From assembly GCF_038404985.1 (NCBI RefSeq), contig NZ_JBBKBA010000003.1:310001-374000 (forward strand): 64,000 nt of DNA, read 5' to 3'. Shown piece by piece: positions 28,464 through 31,814 of this stretch. Each line of letters begins with the position of its first letter. The stretch's first letter is position 1. The notes under the pieces were generated by a model. It searched no databases, was not told where the DNA came from, and saw nothing but the letters and a program-made list of their open reading frames with translations. The DNA comes from Ferrovibrio sp. MS7 (lineage in GTDB: Bacteria; Pseudomonadota; Alphaproteobacteria; Ferrovibrionales; Ferrovibrionaceae). The position numbers were made by a program, and so were the translations under genes.

Positions 28464-28604
28464 GTTTTCTTAAAATTTCGAAACGCCTCAGCACTGACCG
28501 GCGTCAACATCCTATAATTACAATTAATCTATTTTGGGTTGCAAAGAATGCACCCGATGATACATTTTCTGGCGTGTAAAATTTCATTTTATTGGAGCAA
28601 AATA

Positions 28605-29948
28605 ATGCATCCTGTTCTTAGCAACATATGCGCTGAGCTTGATAAAGTTGCTGCAGCCATTCAGTCAAATGTAAGTAGCGATGAACCTTTAAACGTTGCT
28701 CATAACAACTGGAGCTTCCCTGGACTTACACGGTCTGAACTGATTGAAAGAGTAAAAAGTATCACCGACGAGATTCGGGAGCATTCCCCTGCAGAAATTG
28801 GTCATGCTGAACCTCGCCTTGCAGATTATCCAAGACGTCTAGTTGCTTTGAGGAACAATACTATTCCTCAATTGTGGGGGAATGCGCAACATGCCGTGCC
28901 TGCATTACTCGAAACATTGACCGCCTTGTCAATTGCGCTAAAGCCAATCCTTGCCTCAAAAGACCTCACTGAAAAAGCGCGCGAGGCATTGTTAGCTTTA
29001 AAAAGATTAAATACCAAAATTCGCACTATTGAAGCCACTCTTACTGCACTCGAACCTCGCTCTACAATTCTATCTACAATGATCGAAAGGATTGAGAGTG
29101 CCCACGAAGCAGCGGATCAGCTGCCGGTAGATCTTGAGGCTCTTTCAGAAGCGCATAACAAAATTGTTGAGCTCTCTAAACAAGCCGAAGATGCCTTAGA
29201 GTTGGCGAACAAGGAAAAGACTAAGATTGAGAGCCTTTATAGTGAAGCGCAAACAATTGATGCCAAACTTCGCAAAAACTCAATTGAGTCTGATGCTGTA
29301 GTAAAGAAAGCAGAAATGGCATACTCCGCTGCCACTAGCCAAGGGCTTGCTGCGGCATTTGCAGAGCGCTCTCGCGCACTTGATTTTTCGATGCGACTTT
29401 GGGTTATAGGGCTGGTTGGAGCCTTAGTTGCTGGTAGTTTTTTTGGATATCTACGATTTCAAGAACTAGCAAACTCTCTCAATATGCCAACCGTTTCAGA
29501 CATTTCCTTAGTTATCAACTTGGTTCTTTCTTTCTTTTCTATAGGCGCTCCGATTTGGTTTGCATGGATTGCAACCAAACAGATTGGGCAGTGCTTTAGA
29601 TTATCAGAAGACTATGCCTTTAAGGCGTCTGTTTCGAGGGCATATGAGGGGTATCGGAAGGAGGCTGCAAGAGTTGACGACATGTTTGAGGAGAGTGCTT
29701 TGGAGCCACGTCTCCTGGCTTCTGCATTGACCCGGCTTGATGAACAACCACTTCGCCTAGTGGAAACCGCGACTCACGGAAGCCCATGGCAAGAATTATT
29801 AGCTTCAGAAGCCGTACGTGACGCTATAAAGAACATTCCTGATTTTGGGCAGCGTGTAATTGATATGGCTCGCATCTCCCTGAGCAAGCCAAACGCCTCA
29901 GCGCCAAATATAGGGAAAGCTTTGGCCCCGGAGGTAAAACCAGAGTAG
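28605..29948 (+). CDS. Low-GC coiled-coil membrane protein of unknown function
   Basis: 447 residues from the ATG at 28605, which has a GGAG site eight bases upstream; a TTG at 28539 is less likely. Residues 1-250 are helical with coiled-coil character (LVALRNNTIPQLWGNAQ, then long Ala/Glu/Lys-rich helices). Two TM helices lie near 265-287 (MRLWVIGLVGALVAGSFFGY) and 305-328 (LVINLVLSFFSIGAPIWFAW). A C-terminal soluble part follows with RLSEDYAFKASVSRAYEGYR and LASALTRLDEQPLRLVE, which I have seen as a conserved end in unnamed membrane proteins of islands. The gene is far more AT-rich than rnr and the NUDIX genes beside it, so it was probably acquired. No mobile-element gene is adjacent. Confidence 0.7.
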   Translation: MHPVLSNICAELDKVAAAIQSNVSSDEPLNVAHNNWSFPGLTRSELIERVKSITDEIREHSPAEIGHAEPRLADYPRRLVALRNNTIPQLWGNAQHAVPALLETLTALSIALKPILASKDLTEKAREALLALKRLNTKIRTIEATLTALEPRSTILSTMIERIESAHEAADQLPVDLEALSEAHNKIVELSKQAEDALELANKEKTKIESLYSEAQTIDAKLRKNSIESDAVVKKAEMAYSAATSQGLAAAFAERSRALDFSMRLWVIGLVGALVAGSFFGYLRFQELANSLNMPTVSDISLVINLVLSFFSIGAPIWFAWIATKQIGQCFRLSEDYAFKASVSRAYEGYRKEAARVDDMFEESALEPRLLASALTRLDEQPLRLVETATHGSPWQELLASEAVRDAIKNIPDFGQRVIDMARISLSKPNASAPNIGKALAPEVKPE

Positions 29949-30767: not shown

Positions 30768-30805
30768 CCGGGATTCTGGAATGACCGGAATTCTGGAATG
30801 AGTGA
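30755..30805 (+). repeat. Three 17-bp tandem repeats joining two NUDIX genes
   Basis: Units gattctggaatgaccgg at 30755 and 30772 are identical; the third (30789) is diverged. Each unit contains GGAATGA, giving an overlapping ATG and TGA. The first copy carries the stop of the upstream gene and the third carries the ATG of the downstream gene. Confidence 0.9.
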
Positions 30806-31490
30806 TCAGGAAAGCCAGCTGCCGCCTTTCGCCCGGCCGGAACAGGGCTTTCCGTCGCTCGAGCCCGGGACCCGCCCGGTACGCCCACGCGATGCCGCCA
30901 GCCTGGTGCTGCTGCGCCGCCGGCTTTCGGGCTCCTGGGAAGTGCTGCTCGGCCGCCGCGCCGGCAAGCACCGTTTCCTGCCCAATGTCTATGCCTTTCC
31001 AGGCGGCCGGGTTGACTTGAGCGACAAGTCAGATACTCACCACAAGCCATTGGATAAGAACACGGAAAGTCGTTTGCTTAAACACGGATGTTCAATCCGT
31101 GAGGCGCAGGCTCTGGGCATCGCCGCTGCACGTGAAACCTGGGAAGAGACCGGGCTGGCGCTGGGGCCTTTGGTGTCAGGCAACCTGCAGCCGGATCTCT
31201 CCGGCCTGGCCTATCTCTGCCGCGCCATCACCCCGGCGCAGAGCCCGATCCGCTTCCATGCCCGCTTCTTCGTCGCCGATGCCGAGGCCGCCTCGGGCCA
31301 GCTTGGTGGCTCGGGCGAACTGCTCGACCTGAGCTTCCGGCCGCTCGACGACGCCCTGGCGCTACCGCTGGCGGATATCACCGAGTTCGTGCTGACCCAG
31401 CTTAAAGGCCTGGAAAGCCTGTCTCAGCCCGCCCGCACCGCCTTCTGGCGCTACCGCGCCGGGCGCCCGGTGGTGTCTTGGGAGGGCTGA
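30798..31490 (+). CDS. NUDIX hydrolase, second of a tandem pair
   Basis: 230 residues. It has the same layout as the gene before it: AASLVLLRRRLSG and VLLGRRAGKHRFLPNVY, FPGGRVDLSD, and the NUDIX box GIAAARETWEETGLALG. A Trp/Arg-rich end follows. The stretch coding residues 72-105 (31013-31110) is noticeably AT-richer than the rest, with the hairpin CACGGAT-ATCCGTG, though its length matches the paralog, so it is not an insertion by length. The start is supplied by the third repeat unit. The substrate is unknown. Confidence 0.85.
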   Translation: MSDQESQLPPFARPEQGFPSLEPGTRPVRPRDAASLVLLRRRLSGSWEVLLGRRAGKHRFLPNVYAFPGGRVDLSDKSDTHHKPLDKNTESRLLKHGCSIREAQALGIAAARETWEETGLALGPLVSGNLQPDLSGLAYLCRAITPAQSPIRFHARFFVADAEAASGQLGGSGELLDLSFRPLDDALALPLADITEFVLTQLKGLESLSQPARTAFWRYRAGRPVVSWEG

Positions 31491-31514
31491 CAGGGAATAC
31501 CTATGTTCCGGGTC

Positions 31515-31530
31515 TGTTTCACGTGAAACG
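31515..31530. other. parS-like centromere site
   Basis: TGTTTCACGTGAAACG contains the perfect 14-bp palindrome GTTTCACGTGAAAC, identical to the core of the bacterial parS consensus bound by ParB. A half-site TGTTTCACG follows at 31551-31559. It lies between the second NUDIX gene and rpmG, outside coding sequence. In most bacteria such sites cluster near the chromosome origin. Confidence 0.85.
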
Positions 31531-31646
31531 CTAAAAAACCGGGCGCCCCCTGTTTCACGCCCCGCAGGGCACCCTTTCCTTGACAAAGCGCCGCGAATCC
31601 CTATGCTGCGCCAACTTTTTAACGCCCGTCTGTTGGAATCAATCCC

Positions 31647-31814
31647 ATGGCCAAGCCGACCACCCTGAAGATCAAGCTCGTGAGCACCGCCGATACGGGC
31701 TTCTTCTACGTGACCAAGAAGAACCCGCGCACCAAGACCGAGAAGCTCAGCTTCAAGAAGTATGATCCGGTGGCGCGCAAGCACGTGGAATTCAAGGAAG
31801 CCAAGATCAAGTAA
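31647..31814 (+). CDS. rpmG: 50S ribosomal protein L33
   Basis: 55 residues, [20 protein letters not shown], then [20 protein letters not shown] and a basic end. This is a complete L33 of the Cys-free type, typical of proteobacteria. It is part of the large subunit near the E site. It is a single-gene unit, followed by a strong terminator at 31859. Confidence 0.97.

Follow-up and report, generated by a model that had tools for sequence, protein, structure and literature searches.

The parS-like site beside rpmG

The window is a 64,000-nucleotide stretch of Ferrovibrio sp. MS7 DNA, positions 310001-374000 of contig C3 in genome G000 (4.58 Mb, five contigs), in which a parS-like site lies between a NUDIX-domain gene and the co-directional gene for ribosomal protein L33. 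The features around this site, in window coordinates, are as follows.

30798..31490, + strand: NUDIX-domain gene, the upstream neighbour
31504..31529, − strand: composite site, GTTTCACGTGAAAC-AGACCCG-GAACA as read on the − strand, delimited from an alignment of exact sites
31504..31508, − strand: extension box GAACA (TGTTC on the + strand), 7 bp off the palindrome
31516..31529, no strand assigned: parS core GTTTCACGTGAAAC, an exact 14-bp palindrome flanked by T on the left and by G, not A, on the right
31551..31559, + strand: half-site TGTTTCACG, 36 bases past parS
31580..31607, + strand: putative rpmG promoter TTGACA-N16-TATGCT, picked out by eye rather than by a promoter scan
31647..31814, + strand: rpmG (ribosomal protein L33), the downstream neighbour

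The 16 bases at 31515-31530 (TGTTTCACGTGAAACG) agree with the palindrome TGTTTCACGTGAAACA at 15 of 16 positions, the last base being G, and the full 14-bp core at 31516-31529 is exact, as a first-pass annotation of this DNA had claimed. Read on the + strand, positions 31504-31529 form TGTTC-CGGGTCT-GTTTCACGTGAAAC, that is, TGTTC-N7-GTTTCACGTGAAAC. The box was missing from that annotation, although it is the feature that separates the window site from the parS cluster at the origin. The −35 element of the putative rpmG promoter, which is conserved at the rpmG loci of other Ferrovibrio species, stands about 50 bp from the palindrome.

Two subsidiary matches had been reported with the core. The half-site TGTTTCACG is indeed present, and only about 0.001 such half-sites would be expected from background density within 50 bp of a given parS; it is kept in the same-species genome G001, but it is the weaker feature, being absent at rpmG from the other readable Ferrovibrio species (G006 and L056-L060), and its significance is possible. 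The partial match in the NUDIX gene is likewise real as sequence (CACGTGAAAC at 31129-31138, inside a 2-mismatch match at 31125-31138), but we attribute it to protein coding because it overlies the codons for ARET in the Nudix signature (AARETWEETGL) and because a comparable 2-mismatch match occupies the same Nudix place in a second Ferrovibrio species (G006:C35:33971). Named relatives of the NUDIX gene point to Ferrovibrio as the genus, the top match, at 99% identity, being from a Ferrovibrio sp. MAG.

Further upstream, between rnr and the NUDIX pair, the window holds a 469-aa reading frame (28539-29948) that was assigned to no family and looks coiled-coil-like by eye.

Distribution of parS sites in the genome

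Exact cores in G000 number 12, against 0.0038 expected by chance in 4,576,383 bp under a first-order Markov model fitted to 600,008 bases of the genome. A reversed-pattern control returned no exact matches and, at up to two mismatches, 2 matches versus 24 for parS. Five of the 12 cores form a 2.4-kb cluster (C1:701982-704427) around mnmG, directly upstream of parAB (C1:705211-707041, with ParB encoded at C1:706079-707041). The parS-type identity stands, and this exact cluster lies beside the gene for the one chromosomal-type ParB in the genome. The remaining seven are scattered: C1:1891950, C1:2389489, C2:143361, C2:143395 (34 bp from the preceding core), C2:979476, C3:112879 and C3:341516, the last being the window site.

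On contig C1 the cluster has 0.70 Mb of sequence on its left and 2.07 Mb on its right. If all contigs belong to a single chromosome, at least 0.70 Mb (31% of the half-chromosome) separates the window site from parAB, and the two distal sites on C1 lie at 52% and 74% of the half-chromosome from the cluster. Throughout, ‘distal’ denotes any site that has no parB within 15 kb on its own contig, a definition under which draft assemblies can mislabel sites.

These positions do not support the earlier placing of the window in the origin-proximal part of a chromosome or chromid. Both parAB and five of the 12 exact sites are on C1, the window is on C3, and a ParB family search of G000 gave nothing above the cut-off on either C2 or C3; moreover, the gene at C3:233052 has a counterpart on the single 4.26-Mb contig of another species, G009. 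The window site is thus away from the typical, if not strictly required, place of parS near the origin and parAB, and the whole-genome scan largely found what the first-pass annotation had itself named as counting against its placing, spread-out sites or a distant parAB.

GC skew, sampled in 20-kb pieces, was weak, turning from mostly negative to mostly positive near parAB in G009 and on C1 of G000; on C2 and C3 it was mixed and gives no position. The only full DnaA of G000 is encoded on C1, at C1:2122728-2124185 (L293), 1.4 Mb from parB, and since the sampled skew switches near parAB and not near dnaA, oriC and dnaA of G000 are probably uncoupled. Apparent dnaN, recF and gyrB genes adjoin this dnaA. 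Transfer of a map from G009 to G000 was tried and abandoned, gene order being rearranged between the two species.

A box at fixed distance marks most distal sites

In G000, all scattered exact cores but C1:1891950, that is six of seven, have GAACA at exactly 7 bp from the palindrome, and none of the five origin sites does; against the GAAC background, six of seven has a binomial probability of 7e-13. Across nine Ferrovibrio genomes, counted without G001 (a near-copy of G000) and with two sites beside a second parAB on G002:C152 tallied separately, GAAC at +7 was found at 23 of 35 distal versus 0 of 31 origin sites (Fisher 4e-9), or at 14 of 21 distal loci when orthologous loci were merged. Origin sites and other offsets served as internal controls: no other offset within 50 bp had more than 4 GAACs, against 24 at +7. 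Twelve of the 35 distal sites lack GAAC at +7, but it stands at +6 in three of these and at +9 in another (G006:C15).

A search of the order for core, A, N6 and GAAC gave 31 places in 7 of 18 genomes, all Ferrovibrio, corresponding to 29 sites, as two symmetric sites were counted twice. The consensus of 46 boxes is C-G-N-GAAC-A/G, with the C and first G weak. The box with a half-core lacking its left half occurs three times in 1.33 Mb of Ferrovibrio DNA, two of these cases being 1-mismatch full sites, and G008 holds no composite with an intact box, even at two mismatches. We rejected a stem-loop or REP reading of the palindrome, because the distal class does not stand out by longer pairing: its mean extension is 1.83 pairs, against 2.55 in the origin class.

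Two further arrangements were seen in passing. In four Ferrovibrio species (L031:4632, L041:3130, L046:5480, L050:6273), one parS of the origin cluster centres a long terminator-like palindrome, with flanks of the form aaaaggggat-parS-atcccctttt or similar. In G005, the composites at C19:657, C40:1529 and C102:33326 have identical flanks and represent a duplicated region or an assembly repeat.

Beyond Ferrovibrio, core-N7-GAACA is rare and patchy. It occurs in 9 of 385 genomes of the class, from six genera: two Ferrovibrio genomes and seven others in four further families. In G228 (2,753,527 bp on one contig) there are 18 exact cores, of which 8 are clustered beside parB and 10 lie at 27-94% of the half-chromosome; 8 of these 10 scattered sites have the box, and G228 is the sole composite carrier among 121 genomes of its order. 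G276 has six origin and five distal sites, with GAAC at +7 in all five of the latter and in one of the former. Pooled over the seven non-Ferrovibrio genomes, which were chosen for holding a composite, the box is present at 22 of 28 distal versus 2 of 25 origin sites (or 22 of 27 distal, since G354:C45:24862, beside an mnmG-like gene, is probably an origin site). The near relatives G051, G181, G317 and G394 hold no composite with an intact box; because composite genomes stand beside such relatives, we conclude that there have been several gains or losses of the class. A replication polarity of the box was discarded, its orientation being mixed in G228 and G276 (positions read by eye).

Conservation of composite sites between species

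At several loci the palindrome and box have been kept while the flanks have diverged. The composite upstream of aroQ-accBC is present in four species (G003, G005, G007 and, with one core mismatch, G009), where invariant columns make up 93% of the core, 80% of the box and 8% of the 60-bp flanks. Corresponding values at the arsR/SBF transporter locus (G000, G006, G007 and, with two core mismatches, G002) are 86%, 80% and 5-12%, and the rpsU locus, compared among three genomes from another family, gives 100%, 100% and 10-17%.

Composites are also shared at lon-clpX (G004 and, with one core mismatch, G002), at an esterase-like reading frame (G003, G005, G007 and, with one core mismatch, G009) and at an M24-peptidase locus (G000, G001, G002 and G004, with the box at +6 in G002 and G004). 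The closer pairs at lon-clpX, znuC and ndk and the esterase frame are less informative, because their flanks are conserved too. Conservation is poor at the window site itself: the box survives in G001, where the core has one mismatch, the core without the box survives in G006, and L056-L060 have neither at rpmG.

Gene context and alternative readings

Among 48 composites, 43 are intergenic (17 between co-directional, 15 between divergent and 11 between convergent genes) and five lie inside a called reading frame. These classes are rough, as they come from a simple ORF caller, with likely spurious opposite-strand frames in G276 and G352, and the window site was itself labelled divergent because the NUDIX gene had been missed, its real setting being co-directional. 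Given this mixture of contexts, promoter control is not the common theme. An EcfG-type promoter, the motif of which is GGAAC, was considered and set aside, as its −10 part was off the expected distance in the few sites read by eye.

It nonetheless seems conceivable, if rather unlikely, that a transcription factor which happens to share the parS palindrome uses the distal composites as operators, any ParB binding being incidental. The window site is suitably placed some 50 bp upstream of the putative −35 of rpmG, and the 15 composites between divergent genes would also suit operators, but not the 11 between convergent genes or the five inside reading frames. The named candidate is LexA, the alphaproteobacterial operator of which is GAAC-N7-GAAC (PMC3091678); the box matches a LexA half-site in sequence and spacing, the composite reading AAAC-N7-GAAC. 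This is agreement at 7 of 8 positions, the shortfall being systematic, in that all exact-core composites open the first half with A where LexA has G. Against LexA, too, the whole palindrome is kept although it is superfluous for that protein, the box moves to +6 at the M24-peptidase locus, and the identified neighbours (rpmG, aroQ, alaS, ndk, rpsU and lon) are mixed housekeeping genes and not typical SOS genes.

We judge it improbable that the composites are copies of a short repeat of some 34 bp, mobile or REP-like, that has spread by copying and in which the parS likeness is a by-product or a hitch-hiking device. Tandem composites of two to three units do occur (34 bp in G000:C2:143361/143395; 33-34 bp in G006:C5:46332-46413 and C12:48822-48901), and bulk copying may explain why G228 has eight composites and its 120 order mates none. 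However, orthologous positions are kept across species with diverged flanks, no longer common sequence surrounds the sites, and linkers vary among the copies within one genome.

The perfect consensus core and the usual place of parS near the origin (PMC7333895) give the first-pass proposal of an ordinary origin-proximal centromere site its appeal, but it is very hard to sustain for a site that, given a single chromosome, lies no less than 0.70 Mb away from parAB, shares its distal location with six further exact sites and has the box that the origin cluster lacks.

ParB and the candidate reader of the box

An HTH_ParB domain search of G000 returned one protein in the genome. Among solved structures the nearest to it is 6t1f (E 2.1e-64), which bears the title chromosome-partitioning protein ParB, and in comparison with Caulobacter ParB both GERR and the HTH stretch GKSRPHVANTLRLL are largely conserved, so that G000 has a cognate chromosomal ParB with the CTP-binding motif (GERR) and a parS-type HTH. 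In G276, the base pair beside the core is C/G on both sides at six of six origin and five of five distal sites, while most sites elsewhere have T/A; this fits one protein reading both classes. The box resembles the half-parS CGTGAAACA minus one A, which means that ParB or a partner could contact it, but it is not identical to a ParB half-site and a different protein may be its real reader.

Two other ParB-like genes were met with. At G000:C1:2131949-2132197 an 82-aa protein has a weak ParB-family match and no HTH_ParB match, and a second small gene adjoins it on the same strand. In G002, flagged as 6% contaminated, C152:21075-25091 holds a second full-length ParB with two exact parS of its own, and is a plasmid, a chromid or contamination.

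We favour, with moderate confidence and on the strength of sequence comparison, reading the window site as a nucleation site for the single chromosomal ParB, belonging to a second, origin-distal class of parS marked by the GAAC[A/G] box. ParB occupancy of the distal sites, the reader of the box and any effect on the clamp are the parts of this reading that we infer. A ParB dimer would bind the palindrome. The box is 11 bp, about one helical turn, away from its matching C in the parS half-site, which would place it on the same face of the DNA. There an additional ParB protomer might touch it, although a partner protein is the likelier candidate, and this contact may hold or direct the ParB-CTP clamp locally, without its spreading as a centromere complex. 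The distal sites would then act as local DNA-bridging, boundary or regulatory points that do not compete with the origin cluster. Such a reading suggests that a segregation protein has a further, uncharted role around the chromosome.

A bolder version is possible though doubtful: that some Alphaproteobacteria run a genome-wide second system on the same ParB, in which a partner docked on GAACA locks the ParB-CTP clamp and so creates insulated local bridges or boundaries. If true, a partner-locked clamp would let perfect parS persist at a distance from the origin where such sites do harm in Caulobacter, and would be a chromosomal counterpart of KorB-KorA that has been gained several times.

Comparison with known systems

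The likeness to chromosomal ParABS is close: an exact 14-bp core, one Caulobacter-like ParB and a five-site origin cluster beside mnmG-parAB. The difference is that in G000 seven of 12 sites are origin-distal, most with GAACA at +7. For most species in Table 1 of PMC7022226 every parS lies in the ori domain, as do 5/5 in Caulobacter and 2/2 in Hyphomonas; B. subtilis (10/8) and P. aeruginosa (9/4) are among those that depart from this. A review poses the question of what keeps parS sites clustered (PMC7333895), and Caulobacter accepts a further parS cluster only if it sits no more than about 500 kb from the native one (PMC5815017), a limit that makes the Ferrovibrio distal class surprising and testable. 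Ferrovibrio and a few unrelated lineages break the origin-clustering rule with perfect distal sites, and in G000 nearly all of the rule-breaking sites carry one extra 5-bp box at fixed spacing, raising the question of whether the box affects ParB loading, spreading or SMC recruitment and of which protein reads it. A GAACA-type box beside parS goes unmentioned in the accessible parts of PMC7022226 and PMC6650430, and in the literature on origin-distal parS and clamp locking, subscription papers aside, no title or abstract opening names one. The larger result of the analysis is this distal composite class, for which the mechanism is proposed on inference.

The half-parS of P. aeruginosa (GTTCCAC, GTTTCAC) resemble the distal sites as origin-distal ParB contacts with a possible topological role (PMC7022226), but they are isolated heptamers numbering hundreds, whereas the Ferrovibrio sites are full palindromes with a box at fixed distance, few per genome. 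Noc of B. subtilis is likewise a protein of the ParB fold that reads palindromes scattered round the chromosome (PMC4331003); it is, however, an additional ParB paralogue, whose HTH has a specificity and a site of its own, whereas G000 has one HTH_ParB protein and its distal sites keep the parS sequence, which sets them outside the Noc system. Nearest to the proposed mechanism is KorB-KorA of plasmid RK2, in which a ParB-type clamp is stalled by a second DNA-bound protein (PMC11790492); that is a plasmid system with separate operators.
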